Below are positions 3,778 through 31,333 of a stretch of DNA of 64,000 nucleotides, piece by piece. A program made the position numbers and the translations under genes. The notes beneath the pieces were generated by a model, which saw only the letters and a list, made by a program, of their open reading frames with translations, was not told where the DNA came from and searched no databases. The number at the start of each line of letters is the position of its first letter. Position 1 is the first letter of the stretch. Origin of the DNA: Acidobacteriota bacterium (lineage in GTDB: Bacteria; Acidobacteriota; Thermoanaerobaculia; Gp7-AA8; JAHWKK01); the NCBI GenBank assembly GCA_019347945.1, contig JAHWKK010000005.1, positions 1 through 64,000 on the forward strand. Reading direction: 5' to 3'.

Positions 3778-5156
3778 CGCTCGTCTCTCCCGCGCACGGC
3801 GTTGCTCAGCGCATCCGTCCCGCTGGTTCCGATCCTCACTCCCAATCGGCAATCCCTCCCGATGGAGTCGATCACTCTCGACACTTCATCGGGAATCTGC
3901 CGCGAGAGCTCGTCGCACGAGCCTGAAAAATACAGAATGATCGCCTCGGAATCGATCCAGGCGATTTCACGAATTGATTCGATCGCCGATTCAGCGTCAT
4001 CGCTGAAGACGATTCCGATGTCCTTGCTGTTGGCGAGCGCCGACAGCTCCGCGTCGAACCGATCGGGGGACTCGACGATGACGACCGAATACCGCTGTCC
4101 GTAACGGATCGCACGGGGCTGGACGAGAACCGACTTTCCGTCCGAAAGGACGACCGCCTCTCCCTCGAATCTCGACTCGGGCTCGAGCGCGGTCCTAACG
4201 TGCTCACCTCGAAAGCTGTAAATCTCGACGGCGTCCCCGCTCAGAAGACTCCGGGTGATCACAGCGATTCGCTCCCCGTCCTGATGCCAGTCATACGATC
4301 CGATCGACGTACCCGGAGCGACGTGCTGCGTCGCGGCGGTCGGCACGTGAACGCTCCGGATCGCATCGCGATAACCCTCGACGATGAACGAGACCTTGTA
4401 CCCTCGCGGTGCCCAGCGGGGCATCGTCTGCGGAAGACCTTCCCCGGGAATCCAGTTGAGCGCGGGCCTCGTCGCGGAGACGATCGCCGCGTCGAGCGTA
4501 CCCTCGCGGTTCACGATCACGACGGCTTCCTCGCCGTCCGGGGCGAGATCCCATCCTGCGAAGCGCCCTTCGAGACTCGATAGTTTCGTCTGGCCCAGCG
4601 GATCCATCCGCACTCGAACGAGCTCGTCCGCCTCCTCGCCCCGCCGCACGGCAAGCGCCTCGTCACCTCCCGGAAGAAGCGCGACGGCGACGATGTCGCC
4701 GACCTCCGGGACCAGTATTTCCTGACCAGCTGTTTTCCACCGAACATCGTCGTTCACGGCAGCGATGAAGCTCTGCCGGCTCTGCCACGCCAGCACCGCG
4801 TCGGCGATCAGCGCACCCTCCCGGTCATGAACGCGTCCCCCACCCTGACTGCCGAGAAGAAGGTCGCCCTCCAGCGTGATCTCGATCCAATCCGGGCAAG
4901 GCGCCTCGGACCGGCCAGCGGGGCGGCCGTCCTCGCCAACCCTCAGCAAACGGCACTTCCCGTCATCCGCTTCGACCGCCACCCAGAGTGCATCCCCCTC
5001 CCAGCCGACCGCGGCATAACGGGCGGCGACATGAGCCGGCTGGACGAGCCCGGTCGCGGGCGGGGCGCTTGCACACCCCGACAACGGCACCAGGGAGGCG
5101 CAGAGCAGGATAATGGAGCTCGTTGGGAGCGCTGACCGGAAAAAACGTCCTGTCAT
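3774..5156 (-). CDS. Predicted lipoprotein, propeller-like, unknown function
   Basis: From ATG 5156 the product is 460 residues, beginning with a signal peptide and lipobox LSGC (lipid cysteine at residue 28). The mature region contains repeated 'WEGDALWVAV'- and 'GWDLAPDGEEAVVI'-type strands and a 'GSYDWHQDGERIAVI' segment, which suggest TolB/WD40-like blades rather than an enzyme. Translation is coupled to pcnB by GTGA. The ATG faces that of the divergent lipoprotein at 5203 across only 46 bp, which must hold both promoters. The longer open frame upstream of 5156 has no signal peptide and lies antisense to the next gene, so it was not used. Confidence 0.75.
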   Translation of the reverse strand: MTGRFFRSALPTSSIILLCASLVPLSGCASAPPATGLVQPAHVAARYAAVGWEGDALWVAVEADDGKCRLLRVGEDGRPAGRSEAPCPDWIEITLEGDLLLGSQGGGRVHDREGALIADAVLAWQSRQSFIAAVNDDVRWKTAGQEILVPEVGDIVAVALLPGGDEALAVRRGEEADELVRVRMDPLGQTKLSSLEGRFAGWDLAPDGEEAVVIVNREGTLDAAIVSATRPALNWIPGEGLPQTMPRWAPRGYKVSFIVEGYRDAIRSVHVPTAATQHVAPGTSIGSYDWHQDGERIAVITRSLLSGDAVEIYSFRGEHVRTALEPESRFEGEAVVLSDGKSVLVQPRAIRYGQRYSVVIVESPDRFDAELSALANSKDIGIVFSDDAESAIESIREIAWIDSEAIILYFSGSCDELSRQIPDEVSRVIDSIGRDCRLGVRIGTSGTDALSNAVRGRDER

Positions 5157-15729: not shown

Positions 15730-18700
15730 ATGAAACACGCAATTCGCCTGCTTGCGCTTCTGATCATCGTCACCTCGACCGTTCATCTTCAGGCACAGTA
15801 TTTCGGTCGCAACAAGGTTCAGTACGAGCAATTCGAGTTCAAGGTCCTGAAAACGGACCACTTCGACATTTACTACTACTTCGATGACGAGCAGACGGTG
15901 GAGGACATCGCGCGCCAGGCGGAACGCTGGTACGACCGGCTCTCGACGCTGTTCGAGCACGAGCTTCCGCGGAAGCCGATCGTCATTTACGCCGACCACC
16001 CCGACTTTCAGCAGACGACGACCACCGGCGGGCTGATCGGCGAAGGAACGGGCGGGTTCACCGACTCGTTCAAAAACCGGATCGTCATGCCGCTCACGGG
16101 CAGCTACGCCGACAACGACCACGTGCTCGGGCATGAAATGGTCCACGTGTTCCAGTACGACATCGCCCAGACGATCTCACGCTCCGGAACGGGGGGGCGC
16201 TTCCAGCTGCAGCAGCTGCCGCTCTGGATGATCGAAGGGCTCGCGGAGTATCTCTCTCAGGGCCGGATCGACGCTCAGACGGCGATGTGGATGCGCGACG
16301 CGGTAGCCCAGGACGATCTGCCGGACTTCACTACTCTTTCCCGAGACCTTCGTTACACTCCGTATCAGTACGGACAAGCCGTCTGGGCTTATGTGGCCGG
16401 TCGCTGGGGCGATCGCGCGGCGGTTCAGACATTCATCGCGTCGGGCGTACTCGGTCCCGAGGCTGGTTTCAGCCGGGTTCTCGACATGACACCCGATGAG
16501 CTGTTCGAAGCGTGGCATGCGGCAACGCGGGAAGCGTTCGCGCCGGTCATTTCGGCGAGATTCCCTCCCGGTTACACCTCGCGCCCGCTTCTGACTTCCG
16601 AGATCACCGGCGGACGCGTCAACATCGCTCCGTCAATCAGCCCGGACGGGAGTCAGGTCGCTTTTCTTTCGACGCGCGACCTCTTCTCTCTCGACCTCTT
16701 TCTCGCTGACGCCCGGACCGGGGAAGTCTCGCGGAAACTGATCAGCGCGGACGCCGACCCACACTTCGATGCTCTCCGCTTCATTGATTCCTCCGGAACA
16801 TGGTCACCAGACGGCCGGAAGTTCGCCCTTTCGGTTTTCGAGGACGGCAACAACACGATCGCCATCCTCGACGTCGAGTCTCGCGCGGTCGAGCGGCGGA
16901 TCAGGGTAGGGTCGGTAGGCTCGATCTCCAATCCGGCATGGTCACCCGATGGAGAGACGATTGCGTTTTCCGGGATGCGGGGAGGAATCAGCGACCTCTA
17001 TCTTCTCGACCTCGAGTCCAACAATGTCACCCAGCTGACCAACGATCGATATGCCGACCTTCAGCCAGCGTGGGCGCCGAATGGGCGCATGATCGCCTTC
17101 GTCACCGATCGAGGGCCGGGCACCGATCTCGGTGACCTCGATTACCACCAGATGAGGCTCGCGATCTACGACCTCGACTCGAACAACGTGCAGGTCGTCT
17201 CGCTCTTCAACGAGACGCGCCATTCGAACCCGCAGTTTTCCCCCAACGGTTCAGAAATTTTCTTCATCGCCGATCCCGACGGCGTGGCCAACGTATACGT
17301 CTACGACCTCGGAACCGGCTCCGTCGGCCAGCTCACCAACGTCCAGACGGGAGTCACTGGAATTACCGACCTCTCCCCCGCAATCTCGGTCGCCGCATCG
17401 ACCGGTGATCTGATGTACTCGGTTCTCGAGGATGCGCGGTGGAACATCTACGGAATCCAGCGAGACGAGCTGCGCAGAACCAGCATTGCTCAGAACATCT
17501 CCGGAAGAGCCGAGGCTTCAGAGATCCTTCCGCCAGTGGAAGCCATTGGCGACACTGCGGTCGCGAGCTACCTGTCGCGTCCGACGCGTGGTTTGCCGAG
17601 CGAAGACGTCGACTACGCCGTCGGCCGTTACTTCCCTAAACTGAGTCTCGACTACATCGGTCCGCCCGCAATCGGCCTCACCTCCGACGAGTTCGGCACC
17701 GGACTTTCCGGAGCGATCAGCGCTTACTTCAGCGACGTTCTGGGCCAGCATCAGCTCGGAGTGGCTCTCCAGACGGGAAACACCTCGTCCTCAGAGGGGA
17801 CATCCTTCGCCGAACAGATCGGCGGGCAGCTTTTCTATCTCAATCAGTCTCACCGCTTCAACTGGGGCACCGTCCTCATGCACGTCCCATATGTGGATCA
17901 GTTCACGACGGGTGTCGACAGGAACGTCGATCTCGGAGGCGGAGTGCGAGGGGATGTCGTTCAGCAGCTTCGGAGAATCGTCACGATCGACGAGCTGTCT
18001 CTGATCGCGCAATACCCCTTCACGCAGACGAGACGTTTCGAGACCGAAGTGGGGTACACCCGATACCAGGACTCCCGGGATCTGATCGAATACACCCTGG
18101 TTGGAGGGCGGATCGCCGACATCCAGGTCGTCGATTCCGCGGAGATCGATCCACTCGATTACTACCACGGCTCGATTGCCCTGGTCGGCGATTCATCAGC
18201 TTTCGGTTTCGTTTCCCCCGTGCGAGGTACTCGGTATCGCCTCGAGGCGGAAGTCAACGAGGGAGACATCAACTTCACGACCGGCCTCGCCGATTACCGT
18301 CGCTACGTCTTCTTCCGCCCGGTGACCTTCGCGGTCCGCGCAATCCACTTCGGCCGGTACGGTGACGGCGCCGAGGACAACCGGCTGTCGGATCTCTATC
18401 TCGGCAGGACGAGCCTGGTCCGCGGCTATGACGACTTCTCGGCCAGCGAATGCACCTTCTCGCCGGCGAATCCCGAGATCTGTCCGGAGTTCGAGCGGCT
18501 GCTCGGCAGCAAGATCGGCGTGGTCAACCTCGAGGTCCGAGCGCCTCTGTTCGGCAACGAGGAGTTCGGTCTGTTTCAGGTCGAGTTCCTTCCGACCGAG
18601 ATGTACGCCTTCGCCGACGGGGGTGTCGCATGGACGGAAGACGAATCACCGACGTTCAGGTTCGATCAGGATTCGCTCGAGCGCATCCCGGTCTTCAGTG

Positions 18701-18825
18701 CCGGAGTTGGCCTTCGGATGGTTCTCGGTGGCTATCTCCCGCTCAACTTCTACTACGCATTCCCGTTCCAGCGGCCTGCGGAAGAAGGTGGCAAATTCGG
18801 CTTCGCGATTCAGGTCGGATGGTAA
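15730..18825 (+). CDS. Outer-membrane protein: gluzincin-like domain, PD40 propeller, BamA-type barrel
   Basis: 1031 residues from ATG 15730, where a signal peptide (1-22, HLQAQ) begins. The peptidase-like domain shows 'HVLGHEMVHVFQYD' (HEMVH 135-139) and 'LWMIEGLAEYLS' (Glu169), the HExxH...E gluzincin layout. At least five PD40 repeats follow ('SISPDGSQVAFLST', 'TWSPDGRKFALS', 'AWSPDGETIAFSG', 'AWAPNGRMIAFVTD', 'QFSPNGSEIFFI'). The last 350 residues look like a surface-antigen/D15 beta-barrel, with 'LYLGRTSLVRGYDDFS' resembling the VRGY/F barrel motif and an ending 'FGFAIQVGW'. Likely a surface-anchored protease or sensor; substrate unknown. Confidence 0.88.
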   Translation: MKHAIRLLALLIIVTSTVHLQAQYFGRNKVQYEQFEFKVLKTDHFDIYYYFDDEQTVEDIARQAERWYDRLSTLFEHELPRKPIVIYADHPDFQQTTTTGGLIGEGTGGFTDSFKNRIVMPLTGSYADNDHVLGHEMVHVFQYDIAQTISRSGTGGRFQLQQLPLWMIEGLAEYLSQGRIDAQTAMWMRDAVAQDDLPDFTTLSRDLRYTPYQYGQAVWAYVAGRWGDRAAVQTFIASGVLGPEAGFSRVLDMTPDELFEAWHAATREAFAPVISARFPPGYTSRPLLTSEITGGRVNIAPSISPDGSQVAFLSTRDLFSLDLFLADARTGEVSRKLISADADPHFDALRFIDSSGTWSPDGRKFALSVFEDGNNTIAILDVESRAVERRIRVGSVGSISNPAWSPDGETIAFSGMRGGISDLYLLDLESNNVTQLTNDRYADLQPAWAPNGRMIAFVTDRGPGTDLGDLDYHQMRLAIYDLDSNNVQVVSLFNETRHSNPQFSPNGSEIFFIADPDGVANVYVYDLGTGSVGQLTNVQTGVTGITDLSPAISVAASTGDLMYSVLEDARWNIYGIQRDELRRTSIAQNISGRAEASEILPPVEAIGDTAVASYLSRPTRGLPSEDVDYAVGRYFPKLSLDYIGPPAIGLTSDEFGTGLSGAISAYFSDVLGQHQLGVALQTGNTSSSEGTSFAEQIGGQLFYLNQSHRFNWGTVLMHVPYVDQFTTGVDRNVDLGGGVRGDVVQQLRRIVTIDELSLIAQYPFTQTRRFETEVGYTRYQDSRDLIEYTLVGGRIADIQVVDSAEIDPLDYYHGSIALVGDSSAFGFVSPVRGTRYRLEAEVNEGDINFTTGLADYRRYVFFRPVTFAVRAIHFGRYGDGAEDNRLSDLYLGRTSLVRGYDDFSASECTFSPANPEICPEFERLLGSKIGVVNLEVRAPLFGNEEFGLFQVEFLPTEMYAFADGGVAWTEDESPTFRFDQDSLERIPVFSAGVGLRMVLGGYLPLNFYYAFPFQRPAEEGGKFGFAIQVGW

Positions 18826-18830
18826 CGACG

Positions 18831-18858
18831 GTTGGAGGTTTGAGGTTTGAGGTACTCG
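18831..18858. repeat. Heptamer tandem array, 4 units, 5 bp after a stop codon
   Basis: GTTGGAG, GTTTGAG, GTTTGAG, GTACTCG directly after the outer-membrane gene's stop. It faces an array of the complementary heptamer at 19047-19067. Confidence 0.85.
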
Positions 18859-18870
18859 ATTTTCGGAAGC

Positions 18871-18971
18871 GAGACGGGGTCGGGTCTGAACTTGGAACTT
18901 AACTCGCTCTGATCTCGCGAGCTCTGGCGAACACTCAAGTTAAGTTCCAAGTTCAGACCCGACCCCGTTTC
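18871..18971. repeat. Long palindrome, 34-bp arms around a 33-bp loop
   Basis: Arms 18871-18904 and 18938-18971 are inverted copies with one mismatch. Each contains GGGGTCGGGTCTGAACTTGG and continues AACTTAACT. Lying in a convergent intergenic region, it could act as a bidirectional terminator, but it has no T-tract and its arms are far longer than a terminator needs. It resembles a REPIN-like mobile palindrome. Confidence 0.9.
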
Positions 18972-19046
18972 CACGTCATTTCTGAGCGGGCAAACCTCGG
19001 CGGCGGCTCGTGAAGCCGCTGGTCACGATCTACCTGGGTGGGCCTC

Positions 19047-19067
19047 CTCCAACCTCCAACCTCCAAC
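19047..19067. repeat. Heptamer tandem array, 3 units, beside the glutamate dehydrogenase stop
   Basis: Three perfect CTCCAAC units (GTTGGAG on the minus strand) ending 3 bp from the stop codon of the gene at 19071. Confidence 0.85.
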
Positions 19068-19070
19068 CCT

Positions 19071-22000
19071 CTATGCCTGCGCGATGCGACGGAGGGTCCG
19101 CGCCGCGACCGCGAGCATCGAAAGATCCATCGCGGACGCGGAGCGGAGCTCGGTGAGCACACGCTCGGTTCTCTCGACCACCGGCCCACGTTCGGCGAGC
19201 CACTCTGCAATCGCGACTTCCACCTCGCCATTCGGTGAGCTCGCGAGGATGTCGCTGGCGATGTCGCTCTGGTACCCGAAAAGGTCGTCGATCAGGCCCG
19301 CGAGGGCGGCTCTCTGCCAGGCGGATTCGGCAGCAATCCCCGAAGCCGCCTCGCGCAATGCATCGAAACCGAGACGCGCCCCGAGGTCGAAGTAGACCTT
19401 GCCCGCTTCCCGGACGTCACGATCGGTCCTCATCGCAATCCGGACGATGTCGGGAAACGAGCCGACGATATCGAGACTCGCGAGGCGGTTCGCGAGCGAT
19501 TTCGGGATGCCCAGCATTTCGTGATCCCGCGCCTCCTCGCGCAACGAAAGGAGTCTTTCGTCAGACAGCGTGTCGTCGAGGGATTTCGCCAGCGTCATGA
19601 TGCGCTCGTTGAAATTCTGCTGATTACGCGTGATGTCGAGGTCCTCGACGGTTCGCAACAGCCACCGGGTGGTCCGCTCGAGCAGACCCTGCATTGCGAT
19701 GAACATGTCGGTCTGCATTCCGGAGGCGACTTTGTTGTCGAGGCCCTCGATCTTCGCCCAGGTCTTCCGCATCGCGAAGGCATCCCGCGCGATCGTGTAA
19801 GCCCTGGCGATGTCACTGACTGTCCGGCCCGTTTCCTCGATCATCTGAGACACGAACGTAGCGCCGACACGGTTGACCATGCTGTTGGTGACATGAGTCG
19901 CAATGATCTCGCGTCGGAGCCGGTGTTGCTCGATCGCCTCCCGATAGCGTTCGCGCAGCTCCATAGGAAAGTAGAGGAGCAGATCTTTGACCAGAAGCGG
20001 GTCATCAGGGAGGTTCGACTCCAGCAGCTCTTCGTATGTGTCGATTTTCGCGTACGCCAGCAGGACCGCGATCTCGGGTCTGGTGAGGCCCTGACCGGCG
20101 GTTGCACGCTCGGTGATCTCTTCGTCGTTCGGCAAAAACTCCAGCGCGCGATCGAGTCTCCCTTTCCTCTCGAGCAACTTCATCAGACGAGCATGCTGAT
20201 CGAGGATCTCGGGGGCAAGTCTTTCGATGACGCTGATCGCCTGGGTCTGCTGGTAATTGTCCCTGAGAACCAGCTCGGCAACCTCGTTGGTCATGTCGGC
20301 AAGAAGCTCGTTGCGCTGGGTCTGGTCGAGGGCACCCTGGCGCACCCGCGTATCCAGCGCAATCTTGATGTTGACCTCGTGATCGGATGTGTCGACCCCG
20401 GCCGAATTGTCGATGGCGTCCGTATTGATCTTTCCGCCTCTCCGAGCGAACTCGATCCGGGCTTCCTGAGTAAATCCGAGATTTGCGCCCTCGCCCACCA
20501 CCCGTGTACGAAGCTCGTCCGCATTGACTCGCAGCGCGTCGTTCGCACGGTCGTGAGCTTCGGCATGAGTCTGCTCGCTCGACTTCACGTACGTTCCGAT
20601 CCCGCCGAGCCAGAGGAGATCGACCCTCGCTCGCAGCATCGCCTTGATCAGATCATTGGGAGTCGTCGTTTCCGATTCGAGCCCGTAGAGCTCGCGAATC
20701 TGCGGGGACACCCGGATCGTCTTGGACGACCGATCGAAAACACTGCCTCCCTCGGACATCACTGAACGGTCGTAATCCGCCCATGTCGTTCTCGGTGTGT
20801 CGAACAGACGCTTTCGTTCGTTGAAGCTGGTCGCCGGATCCGGATCGGGGTCGACGAATATGTGCATGTGATTGAACGCACCCACCAGTCGTATGTGCTG
20901 GGAGAGGAGCATCCCGTTGCCGAAGACGTCGCCAGCCATGTCCCCAACTCCGACGACCGTGAAGTCCGCAGCCTGAGTGTCGTGGCCGAGCTCGCGGAAG
21001 TGTCGCTTGACGGCCTCCCAGGCTCCGCGGGCCGTGATTCCCATTTTCTTGTGGTCGTATCCGGCCGAGCCGCCCGACGCGAATGCGTCCCCGAGCCAGA
21101 AGTCATACTCGGCCGCAACTGCGTTCGCGTAGTCGGAAAACGTCGCGGTCCCCTTGTCCGCGGCCACGACCAGATATGAATCATCCGGGTCCCGCCTCAC
21201 GACATTCTTCGGAGGCACGAGAACATCGCCGACCAGGTTGTCCGTCAGGTCGAGCAGGCCTCGAAGAAAGTTCTGATAGCAGTGGATTCCCTCTTCGAGA
21301 AAGGCGTCCCGGTCAGACGCCGGAGGCGCCTGCTTCAGAACGAATCCACCCTTGGAGCCGACGGGTACGATGACCGCGTTTTTCACGATCTGCGCTTTGA
21401 CGAGCCCCAGGATCTCCTGGCGAAAATCCTCTCGCCGGTCGGACCACCGCAAGCCTCCACGCGCGACGCGGCCCCCGCGCAGGTGAACGCCTTCGAAGCG
21501 CGGGGAATAGACGAATATCTCGAACATCGGCTTGGGCGCCGGCATGAACGAGACTGATCTCGAGTCGAATTTCATCGACAGATAGCGTTTGCGTTCGCCA
21601 TTTTCCAGAGGCTGAAAAAAGTTGGTTCGGAGCGTCGCATCGATCACTTCGAGGTAATGCCTCAGAATCCGGTCTTCGTCGACATTGGAGACGCCGTCGA
21701 GATGGCCCTCGATCTGGTCCCGGATCTCGTCGACGCGATCACGCTCCTCCTCGGAGGCTTCAGGATCGAACATGGCGTTGAAGAGCCTGACGAGCAGATA
21801 GGCGATCGTCGGGTTGTTCGCGAGGGTTACCTGCATGTAGGTCTCGCTGAACGTCACTCCGAGCTGTCTGAGGTATTTGCAGTACGCTCTGAGAATGATG
21901 ATCTCGTACCATTCGAGTCCCGCGCACAGCACCAGCCGGTTGAAGCCGTCATCCTCGGTGTCGCCCTTCCAGGCGCGAATGAATGCCTCCTGAAACGGCT

Positions 22001-23876
22001 CTTTGACGGGCGCGATCTCGATGTCCGCCATCGGCATGATCAGGGTGAAATCCCGAATCCGGACGGTCCGCTCCTCTCCCGCGACGTGAAGCTCGTGAGG
22101 TGTCGCCATCTCAACGCGGAGTCCCATGTTCTCGAGCCGCGGGACGATGTCGGAGAGCGCAAGCGGGTCGCCGAGATTGATGAATTTACAGTGCAGATCG
22201 AGCAGTTCTCCCGATTCCTCGCTCGGCTGCTCGTAGAGCTCCACGATCAGATCTCCACGTTCGATGAGCGCATCGATTGACTGAATGTCCCGCACTGCAT
22301 CCGCAGCGGTGAATTTTTCTTTGTAGGCGACCGGAAAAGCTTCGCGGAACCGGGAAAATTGTTCTCGTCCCTCCTCCTCGCCGAGCTTCTCGATCAACAC
22401 CGCCCGAAGGTGGTCGTTCCAGCTTCTGGCAGCTTCCGCGATGAGCGTTTCGACGGCCTTCAGGTCGTACTCGGGGATCTTGCCCGGCTCGGTCTTGACG
22501 ATGAAGTGGGCTCTCGCCAGCGGAGAGTCGGTCATCTGCGTATAGAACGCCGTGACCACGCCGTTGAACGCGACCTCGAGAATGACCCGGATCTTCTCAC
22601 GAAGGTTCGAGTCGTAGTGATCTCGCGGAACGAATACCAGACACGACAGGAACCGCTCGAACACGTCTCGTCGGACGAAGAGCGCGGTCCTCTGCCGCTC
22701 CTGCAGCTGCAGGATCCCGAGGCTCATTTCATAAAGCTCGTCCTCCGTAATCTGGAAGAGCTCGTCCCGCGGCAGCGTCTCGAGTATCTGAGCGAGCGCT
22801 TTTCCCGCATGCGAATTCGGGGCGAGCTCGGCCCTCTCCAGCGTCCTCGAAGCTTTTCTCCTCAGCAGCGGAATGAACTTGACGCTCCGCGAATATGCCG
22901 TCGAGGTGAACAGCCCGAGAAAACGATGCTCGCCGATGACGCGTCCGTCTTCCGCGAAGCGTTTGACGCTGATCCGGTCCATGTGAACCGGTCGATGGAC
23001 GCGACTCCGGCTGTTCGCCTTCGCAACGATGATCATTTCGTTGCGCCGGGCGAACTGGCTGAACTCTTCGGTGAACGGCTGCGCGCCTCTCTCGGCGCTC
23101 TCCGGTCGGACTTCCCGGAGGATACCGAGTCCCGACTCCGGATCGAGCTTCAGATAGTCGTCACCCTTCTCGGTGACGAAGTCGTAGCGGCGGTAGCCGA
23201 GAAACGTGAAATGCTCGTCATCGAGCCATTTGAGGAATTCGACCGCTTCATCGACTTCCTCCTCGGCCACCGGGGGATGTCGCTCGCTTAGCTCCCTGAG
23301 GCTCTCGCGCATCTGCTCCCGCATCGCTTTCCAGTCGCGAACCGCGACGCGAACGTCCGCGAGCACATCGAGGATGCTCGCCCGCATTGATTCGAGAACG
23401 TCGGGGCTGGTCTCCCGGTTGAGCTCCAACTGCATGTACGACTCGGAGATCGGCTCTCCATCGGCGCTCCGTACGCCCTCGGGAGTTCGTCTGATTTCGA
23501 CGACGGGGTGAATCACGAGCTGCAGTGTGTGTTCCGAACTGACGATGGCGGCCGTGATCGAGTCGACGAGAAAAGGCATGTCGTCATTGACGATCTCGAG
23601 AACGGTCCGATCGTGTGCCCATCCACCTTCCTCCGAGGGATTCTTGAATCGGAGTTTCGGCGTGTCGGGTTCTCTTTTCTCGCCAAACTCCCAGAGCGAG
23701 AGCACCGCGCTCAGCAGATTGTCGAGCGAGCGGGGAATGATGTCCGCAGGAGAAACGAGCTCGTAGAATTTTCGAATGAATCGTTCGAGACCGTACTGAT
23801 CCCCCTCGACCGATCTCAGTGCCTTGTCGACGATGTCATCGACGATCTCCGCTTTTCGCGCCTCGTCTGCAATCAC
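19071..23876 (-). CDS. NAD-specific glutamate dehydrogenase, large (180-kDa) class
   Basis: A 1601-residue cytosolic enzyme, the size expected of the L-GDH180 class, which converts glutamate to 2-oxoglutarate and ammonia with NAD+. The N-terminal half holds the ACT-like regulatory regions ('WAHDRTVLEIVNDDMPFLVD' at 69-88). The catalytic half has 'VPVGSKGGFVLK' with the catalytic lysine, the NAD-binding 'VVGVGDMAGDVFGNGML', and 'VGEGANLGFTQEARIEFA'. Translation starts at GTG 23876; no strong SD is visible. It is monocistronic in appearance, bounded by repeat arrays on both sides. With korAB (41-44 kb) it supplies and consumes 2-oxoacids, fitting growth on amino acids. Confidence 0.95.
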   Translation of the reverse strand: MIADEARKAEIVDDIVDKALRSVEGDQYGLERFIRKFYELVSPADIIPRSLDNLLSAVLSLWEFGEKREPDTPKLRFKNPSEEGGWAHDRTVLEIVNDDMPFLVDSITAAIVSSEHTLQLVIHPVVEIRRTPEGVRSADGEPISESYMQLELNRETSPDVLESMRASILDVLADVRVAVRDWKAMREQMRESLRELSERHPPVAEEEVDEAVEFLKWLDDEHFTFLGYRRYDFVTEKGDDYLKLDPESGLGILREVRPESAERGAQPFTEEFSQFARRNEMIIVAKANSRSRVHRPVHMDRISVKRFAEDGRVIGEHRFLGLFTSTAYSRSVKFIPLLRRKASRTLERAELAPNSHAGKALAQILETLPRDELFQITEDELYEMSLGILQLQERQRTALFVRRDVFERFLSCLVFVPRDHYDSNLREKIRVILEVAFNGVVTAFYTQMTDSPLARAHFIVKTEPGKIPEYDLKAVETLIAEAARSWNDHLRAVLIEKLGEEEGREQFSRFREAFPVAYKEKFTAADAVRDIQSIDALIERGDLIVELYEQPSEESGELLDLHCKFINLGDPLALSDIVPRLENMGLRVEMATPHELHVAGEERTVRIRDFTLIMPMADIEIAPVKEPFQEAFIRAWKGDTEDDGFNRLVLCAGLEWYEIIILRAYCKYLRQLGVTFSETYMQVTLANNPTIAYLLVRLFNAMFDPEASEEERDRVDEIRDQIEGHLDGVSNVDEDRILRHYLEVIDATLRTNFFQPLENGERKRYLSMKFDSRSVSFMPAPKPMFEIFVYSPRFEGVHLRGGRVARGGLRWSDRREDFRQEILGLVKAQIVKNAVIVPVGSKGGFVLKQAPPASDRDAFLEEGIHCYQNFLRGLLDLTDNLVGDVLVPPKNVVRRDPDDSYLVVAADKGTATFSDYANAVAAEYDFWLGDAFASGGSAGYDHKKMGITARGAWEAVKRHFRELGHDTQAADFTVVGVGDMAGDVFGNGMLLSQHIRLVGAFNHMHIFVDPDPDPATSFNERKRLFDTPRTTWADYDRSVMSEGGSVFDRSSKTIRVSPQIRELYGLESETTTPNDLIKAMLRARVDLLWLGGIGTYVKSSEQTHAEAHDRANDALRVNADELRTRVVGEGANLGFTQEARIEFARRGGKINTDAIDNSAGVDTSDHEVNIKIALDTRVRQGALDQTQRNELLADMTNEVAELVLRDNYQQTQAISVIERLAPEILDQHARLMKLLERKGRLDRALEFLPNDEEITERATAGQGLTRPEIAVLLAYAKIDTYEELLESNLPDDPLLVKDLLLYFPMELRERYREAIEQHRLRREIIATHVTNSMVNRVGATFVSQMIEETGRTVSDIARAYTIARDAFAMRKTWAKIEGLDNKVASGMQTDMFIAMQGLLERTTRWLLRTVEDLDITRNQQNFNERIMTLAKSLDDTLSDERLLSLREEARDHEMLGIPKSLANRLASLDIVGSFPDIVRIAMRTDRDVREAGKVYFDLGARLGFDALREAASGIAAESAWQRAALAGLIDDLFGYQSDIASDILASSPNGEVEVAIAEWLAERGPVVERTERVLTELRSASAMDLSMLAVAARTLRRIAQA

Positions 23877-27381: not shown

Positions 27382-27428
27382 GCAAGACGGCGAGCAATGT
27401 GGGAAGAGGCTGTTCCGCCGGGCTCGGG

Positions 27429-27449
27429 GTTTGAGGTTGGAGGTTCGAG
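27429..27449. repeat. Heptamer tandem array, 3 units
   Basis: GTTTGAG, GTTGGAG, GTTCGAG, about 60 bp upstream of the M23 gene's ATG. Confidence 0.8.
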
Positions 27450-27579
27450 GTTTTAAGCCGAAGCACTCGATTCTCGCGTGATCGAGCCGCCGAAGGCGAA
27501 GGATCTGGGGACGGTCGTGGTCAACGTGACCAGCGCCTGCACCGATGATTCACGACCCCCCTGCCCCCCTCGCTTCGCC

Positions 27580-27810: not shown

Positions 27811-27845
27811 CTGCAACCTCCAACCTCGAACCTCGAACCTCGAGC
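27811..27845. repeat. Heptamer tandem array, 5 units, touching a stop codon
   Basis: CTGCAAC, CTCCAAC, CTCGAAC, CTCGAAC, CTCGAGC end exactly at the base before the S41 peptidase stop codon (27846-27848). Confidence 0.88.
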
Positions 27846-31023: not shown

Positions 31024-31051
31024 CAGGAATCAGGATCCAGGATCCAGGTTG
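31024..31051. repeat. Heptamer tandem array (CAGGATC type), 4 units, 6 bp after the sixA stop
   Basis: CAGGAAT, CAGGATC, CAGGATC, CAGGTTG. Confidence 0.85.
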
Positions 31052-31220: not shown

Positions 31221-31288
31221 CTGGCTCCTGATTCCTGTCCTGGCTCCTGATTCCTGAATCCTGGCTCCTGATTCCTGAATCCTGGCTC
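31221..31288. repeat. Heptamer tandem array (CTGRNTC type), 10 units
   Basis: CTGGCTC, CTGATTC, a 5-bp short unit, CTGGCTC, CTGATTC, CTGAATC, CTGGCTC, CTGATTC, CTGAATC, CTGGCTC. A higher-order 21-bp period (three different heptamers) is visible in the second half. Confidence 0.9.
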
Positions 31289-31333
31289 CTCTCTGCCGGT
31301 TTACTTTCCGCCTCTGGCCGTGTCAAAGGGAGC

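Follow-up and report, generated by a model that had tools for sequence, protein, structure and literature searches.

A dispersed hairpin-forming repeat and mirrored heptamer arrays in a gap between convergent genes of an Acidobacteriota bacterium

In TIRtrons, or TIRYT elements, a Y1 transposase lies between long terminal inverted repeats (TIRs), some of which share the sequence GGGGWSAS, and the TIR repeats also occur dispersed in the genome, as singles or as dimers, in the sections of Di Nocera's account that treat them (PMC3733652). The repeats of REPIN/RAYT systems, as outlined in PMC3116915, are inverted doublets of a short repeat that form a hairpin, their mobilisation being attributed to a Y1 transposase acting in trans, and in the part of the TnpA-Y1 classification that concerns subclass 2.1, Y1 proteins that are long and have a helix-turn-helix at the C-terminus are linked to TIRYTs (PMC6006769). 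Tandem heptamers have been described in other settings, namely in Geobacter metallireducens, where tandem octa- or heptanucleotide repeats come in pairs, one on each strand and variably spaced, with five tandem heptanucleotides in one of the repeat classes (PMC2700814, in the portion on these repeats), and in Beggiatoaceae and others, where TAACTGA heptamers form intergenic tandem arrays near genes (as presented in outline in PMC4679880).

The window analyzed here, a stretch of 64,000 nucleotides from an Acidobacteriota bacterium (contig JAHWKK010000005.1, positions 1 to 64,000), contains a gap of 245 bp (18826-19070) between the called stops of two convergent genes (Table 1). A sequence-only reading had described this gap as a palindrome with 34-nt arms flanked by heptamer arrays in mirror orientation, running from one stop through heptamers, palindrome and inverted heptamers to the other stop, and as repeat-built and symmetric as a whole. 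The arms (an inverted repeat that is 97% complementary), the mirrored arrays and the order of parts between the two stops were all confirmed; the order is symmetric, but arms and arrays together amount to about 115 of the 245 bp, and "repeat-built" is thus overstated for the gap as a whole. All gene ends were supplied by a self-written, simple codon-usage caller, and distances to them are therefore approximate. Folded as RNA, the gap region reaches -137.1 kcal/mol (z -10.7). A 20-nt arm motif has two matches in the window and none in 100 shuffles, the two heptamer arrays form an inverted pair (18827-18852 and 19046-19071, 26 nt, 88%), and the motif of the heptamer pair is found 18 times in the window as against a shuffle mean of 1.2. 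The explanation that we consider quite probable joins two parts, a palindrome that would be a dimer copy of a TIR repeat and a pattern of heptamer brackets that is independent of it.

Table 1. Coordinates of the features in and around two heptamer-bordered gaps of the window
Feature	Position	Strand
PD40/WD40-like propeller + Omp85 domain protein, 1031 aa (left gene)	15730..18825	+
Heptamer array (GGTTTGA)3.4, 4 bp past the stop of the left gene (TRF)	18830..18853	+
Left arm of palindrome, 34 nt; family-conserved core CGGGGTCGGGTCTGAACTTGGAACTTAAC at 18875-18903	18871..18904	+
Putative TIR-repeat / REPIN-like element, 93 bp, one of 17 clean genome copies	18875..18967	.
Loop of palindrome, 33 nt, differs among family members	18905..18937	.
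Right arm of palindrome, inverted copy of left arm	18938..18971	-
Heptamer array (CCTCCAA)3.3, 2 bp short of the right gene's stop (TRF)	19046..19068	-
Large NAD-dependent glutamate dehydrogenase, 1601 aa (right gene)	19071..23876	-
Same heptamer family, left bracket of second gap (TRF)	27424..27452	+
Same heptamer family, right bracket of second gap, mirror pair without palindrome (TRF)	27815..27843	-

With up to two mismatches allowed, the 19-nt core of the arm is found 41 times in the genome, and the backwards pattern not once. A scan of 34 sequences (the window and 33 loci) returned 18 rows of pairs and 8 of solo or partial copies, with 17 clean inverted pairs of 96-97 nt outer length as scanned (the element itself measures 92-93 bp) and one pair, at L087, whose right arm is degraded. 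The element consists of two inverted 29-nt arms around a centre of 34-35 nt, and in an alignment of the 17 clean copies (93 columns) the arms are almost invariant while the centre is variable. The window palindrome forms a DNA hairpin of -41.3 kcal/mol (z -11), and the family hairpin comprises 33 pairs over the 17 copies, with 95.5% of cells paired, both sides altered in 5 pairs and a covariation score above that of all 500 shuffles; arms taken singly show no folding beyond that of shuffles (z 0.23 and 0.62). An Rfam search returned only microRNA-precursor models below the gathering threshold (best 42.7 bits, cut-off 100), which we read as what any long hairpin would give. The arm was found in none of 59 relatives, the nearest of the genomes compared belonging to the same order as the host; its exact pattern matches one record in the public genome collection, a contig of Algoriphagus, and none in the viral collection. 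The palindrome, one of about twenty copies of this repeat, is best read, on sequence features, as a non-autonomous repeat of mobile type (a REPIN-like TIR repeat), in a family that would be new though its kind is already known. Partial elements at the start of contig C19 (L082) and at the end of C49 (L091) have one loop in common and are probably a single element split at its hairpin by the assembly, the two contig ends being neighbours. Elsewhere (L072:3640-3667), a called gene runs at its end into an arm, which provides its stop codon.

Eight matches to PF01797 were identified in the genome. None of these eight Y1 loci has a transposase flanked by exactly the arms of the window family; seven show no family arm within the stretch fetched, and the remaining one, on C5, has a solo arm, the Y1 gene beside it being rejected as cognate since that gene sits in a different REP family. 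A second REP-like system, with Y1 genes amid the repeats GTCGCCCGCTGAAGCGGGC and CCCCCGGCTGAAGCCGGGGG, is present on C5 at about 112-113 kb (L073:1130-2200) and at the start of C8 (L094:1-1420), and one of its Y1 genes matches the IS200 transposase model of NCBIfam.

The Y1 transposase on C31 is intact (318 aa, with HYH and Y---NP motifs and a helix-turn-helix-like C-terminal stretch giving sub-threshold Pfam matches only); against NCBIfam REP_Tyr_transpos it scores 72.4, below the cut-off of 80, and a fragment on C1 scores 85, above it. The C31 gene is flanked by inverted arms (TGGGGTC...AACTTAAC and TGGGGTC...AACTTACC) which are equal to the family arm in length (29 nt) and have the same GGGGTC and AACTTA ends. 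In register, and counted in part by eye, they are identical to the window arm at 18 and 17 of 29 positions; taken alone this identity is weak, and in the background 19 of 768,048 29-mers reach 18/29, while sites in transposase loci that are not flanks also reach 17-18. The link is stronger than the raw identity, since the pattern GGGGTC N4 CT N2 A N5 AACTTA, built from the C31 arms and the family arm, located, unprompted, the arms that enclose a second transposase, a broken one on C4, as well as further inverted pairs on C3 and C44, the inverted pairs overall spanning 179-233 bp. With up to one mismatch this pattern occurs at 33 + 30 places in the genome, and its reverse at 0 + 0. The C4 transposase lies in pieces between its inverted arms (L096:869-1948), one piece having an in-frame stop. 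Four inverted pairs of 227-233 bp (L205:1945-2190 and 3936-4180, L208:1485-1740 and 2070-2320) have both ends of the C31 element and no gene, and look like shortened C31-type elements resembling internal-deletion derivatives. No such arms lie near the RAYT fragments on C10, C37 and C38, one stray match excepted.

The exact GGGGTC...AACTTA pattern is found in 4 of 195 genomes of relatives (5 of 196 with the host's own). In one of these, G002, which belongs to the same order, it occurs 46 + 44 times, and the transposase, 55% identical to that of C31, has one arm on its left and two inverted arms on its right; each of the six dispersed arm clusters fetched from this genome contains an inverted pair. 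At 43 nt the G002 repeat is longer, an imperfect palindrome (GTTAAGTTGG...CAACTTAAC, by eye) around a GGGGGTC core, and the counterpart of the window arm is only this core together with the inner half. Among 29 transposase loci of relatives (L241-L269), both-side arms were found only at L243, that of G002, with one stray match at L267, and the arm design is therefore common to few members and not to the whole transposase family. The earlier suspicion that the arm motif is of a type seen at loci of REP-type transposases was right in kind, similar arms flanking Y1 transposases both here and in G002, although a transposase with the exact arms was not found.

From the G002 arms and the outline of REPINs in PMC3116915, we infer that the palindrome would work like a REPIN and would have been spread in trans, a Y1 transposase acting on single-stranded hairpins having probably copied or moved it; the element would then be a non-autonomous mobile repeat of 92-93 bp served by TIRYT/RAYT Y1 transposases. 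A version of this explanation, rather than its opposite, holds that the family is a fossil, inactive today, whose arms were spread by a transposase since lost. This is possible but on the unlikely side: the exact-arm transposase is absent among the eight Y1 loci and a decayed transposase remnant lies on C4, yet the arms are nearly invariant in 17 copies whose loops differ, and this favours a recent spread or copying that has continued.

As for the heptamers, the exact GAGGTT form has 104 matches in the host genome and single matches in 4 of 99 relatives. The G-rich strand of GAGGTT arrays reads away from the nearest gene in 54 of 59 cases, and other heptamer families have matching polarity (TTCACT 25/27, CAGGAT 19/19, GCAACC 13/14), so that in the four families pooled the C-rich or pyrimidine-rich strand reads into the nearest gene in 111 of 119 arrays, at starts and stops alike. 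This sample comes from loci fetched around GAGGTT arrays and elements, arrays within a called gene or with a missing flank having been dropped (7 for GAGGTT, 2 for TTCACT, 3 for CAGGAT and 0 for GCAACC). In a sample of 448 kb, made up of the window, C18 and C19 (these two contigs picked for having arrays) and 240 kb of C1, the strand with more G than C reads away from the gene in 51 of 63 intergenic period-7 arrays, but in only 7 of 13 on unselected C1 alone; in relatives the polarity holds for 14/18 (G002), 8/11 (G004) and 9/11 (G003). The proposal that heptamers are read in sense only after stop codons was rejected, given that arrays also adjoin starts, and the count of the backwards heptamer (76 + 64) is invalid as a control, the heptamer being nearly its own mirror. 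In the window, a CAGGATC array at 31031-31048 faces an array of CTGGCTCCTGATTCCTGAATC at 31221-31290, whose unit is three heptamers. Some heptamer-bordered gaps (L192:2371-2544 and L191:2522-2679) hold arrays built of GTGGAC-type units, most of them 9-12 nt long, and another dispersed repeat (TCATCCTGAGC...GAAGGATCTGGG) lies within many gaps, e.g., L169, L176 and L197.

In 23 of 138 gaps the left and right halves of the same gap form inverted repeats with a score of at least 20, and re-dealing the right halves gives a mean of 3.7 such gaps (0/2000); direct repeats with such a score are formed in 4 of 138. This pairing within gaps is clearer than the per-array polarity. Some of the same-gap inverted arms are non-heptamer repeats, and the window gap itself is counted in these inverted-arm tests through its palindrome, not as a heptad stem. 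A stricter test, aimed at stems built of repeats, leaves 30 gaps over all samples, the best lag being 7 in 24 of them, and the 5' arm of these heptad stems is purine-rich in 23 of 24. Gaps with heptad stems number 6/86 (C1 and window) and 3/50 (C18 and C19) in the host, 7/49 (G002), 1/39 (G004) and 3/30 (G003) in relatives of the same order, and, at phylum level, 1/48 in G156 and 3/18 in G195 and G152 pooled; no heptad stems were found in 30, 34 and 41 gaps of the class-level genomes G026, G032 and G049. All four genomes sampled from the order, and both of the phylum-level samples, thus contain heptad-stem gaps, and the heptamer motifs mostly differ from genome to genome. Tentatively, and with more doubt than confidence, mirrored heptamer brackets may be a general, little-described intergenic structure of the order, perhaps of the phylum, in which one heptamer array would stand at either border of a gap as an inverted pair, its purine-rich arm lying 5' whichever strand is read; conserved geometry with free heptamer sequence would suggest a generating process over a binding site.

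Matching heptamer arrays border a gap in inverted orientation, and their G-rich or purine-rich strand leads, in most cases, away from the nearest gene; the pattern may have a structural or transcription-boundary role or may come from a repair process that adds repeats. In the latter case, a break within the gap might be followed by the addition of one templated heptamer to each of the two 3' ends, with telomere-like polarity, or the brackets might arise by fold-back synthesis. The Rho factor prefers a C-rich, G-poor strand, and the mirrored heptamers could be viewed as transcription insulators, presenting such a strand, to be read by Rho, to transcription that enters a gene. We regard this as unlikely: the strand reading into the nearest gene is C-rich or pyrimidine-rich in the 111 of 119 arrays from the fetched loci, but the polarity falls to 7/13 on unselected C1, and pairing of the two arrays would bury the C-rich strand in a stem.

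Among the 18 family elements with a gene on both sides (5 elements lacking one or both flanks and the solo arms being left out), 9 lie in convergent gaps, 9 between tandem genes and none in divergent gaps. The baseline on 240 kb of C1 is 28 convergent pairs among 197 neighbouring gene pairs (p = 8e-4 against 9/18) and 29 divergent ones, the latter not significantly different from 0/18 (p = 0.14). A preference for convergent gaps is reported for REPs too, in the passages of PMC3733652 on their location. Six elements overlap a called gene end. The palindrome as a bidirectional terminator of both convergent genes, maintained by selection, would account for the strong hairpin and for the excess in convergent gaps; this is very unlikely, however, as no terminator-like site (a GC-rich stem followed by a T run) is found in 18700-19200, half of the elements lie between tandem genes, and near-identical arms in many copies indicate spread, not local selection. 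The place of the palindrome in the window gap was more probably tolerated than selected, and the hairpin may have a secondary role in RNA 3'-end stability.

Palindrome and heptamers are two independent repeat systems sharing one gap. Only 3 of the 23 elements (both contig-end halves of the probable single element being counted and solo arms left out) have a period-7 array within 250 bp, as compared with 7 of 68 gaps of at least 100 bp in the part of C1 covered (Fisher p = 0.71). The view of palindrome and heptamers as a single layout is not supported, and the check that it had called for, other copies of the arm with heptamers at their flanks, gave the copies and, in those 3 elements only, the heptamers; arm and arrays both recur, separately. 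That the whole gap is a composite mobile element with heptamer ends is scarcely credible, the symmetric order in the window being offset by the 3/23 association and by mirrored arrays that elsewhere surround quite different contents.

Under the two-part explanation, the palindrome would represent a further family in the TIRYT branch of repeats linked to Y1 transposases, a branch that is little known, and G002 offers a clean system of transposase plus repeats. The heptamer brackets are the surprising part and merit specialist attention more than the palindrome: if real across the order, with geometry kept and sequence free, they would point to a DNA process at gene borders.

In comparison with known heptamers, each Geobacter class consists of a single motif common to its members and interpreted, in the relevant part of PMC2700814, as binding sites for regulators, whereas here the heptamer varies by gap and genome and the geometry is constant; TAACTGA is likewise one motif, forming direct repeats mostly just upstream of starts (PMC4679880, in its description of the arrays), unlike the mirrored pairs seen here. 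A search of the open-licence literature with few terms returned no description of sequence-free mirrored heptamer pairs, an absence that is weakly supported. The window family resembles REPINs in having two inverted copies, a variable spacer and a hairpin. It falls outside the definition of REPs, since these are each palindromic and a single arm of the window family does not fold (z 0.23), and since the conserved arms, by eye in the aligned family, are without the GTAG tag of the GTAG REP class. The C31 transposase resembles TnpA-Y1 subclass 2.1, an assignment by length, motifs and weak helix-turn-helix matches only. Like the TIR repeats of TIRYTs, the family is dispersed, as 17 clean inverted pairs and solo arms; it was found in none of the 59 relatives examined. 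In the excerpted description of PMC3733652 the repeats flank the Y1 gene, and here similar, non-identical arms flank the C31 and C4 transposases. By eye, the GGGGWSAS sequence of some TIRs is matched at 7 of 8 positions by the window arm (GGGGTCGG) and by each C31 arm, and at 8 of 8 by the C4 and G002 arms (GGGGTCAC). Membership in TIRYTs is short of proven, as a transposase with the exact window arms was not found in the genome; judged on these features, the palindrome likely belongs with the TIR repeats of TIRYT elements, a better place for it than among REPs.
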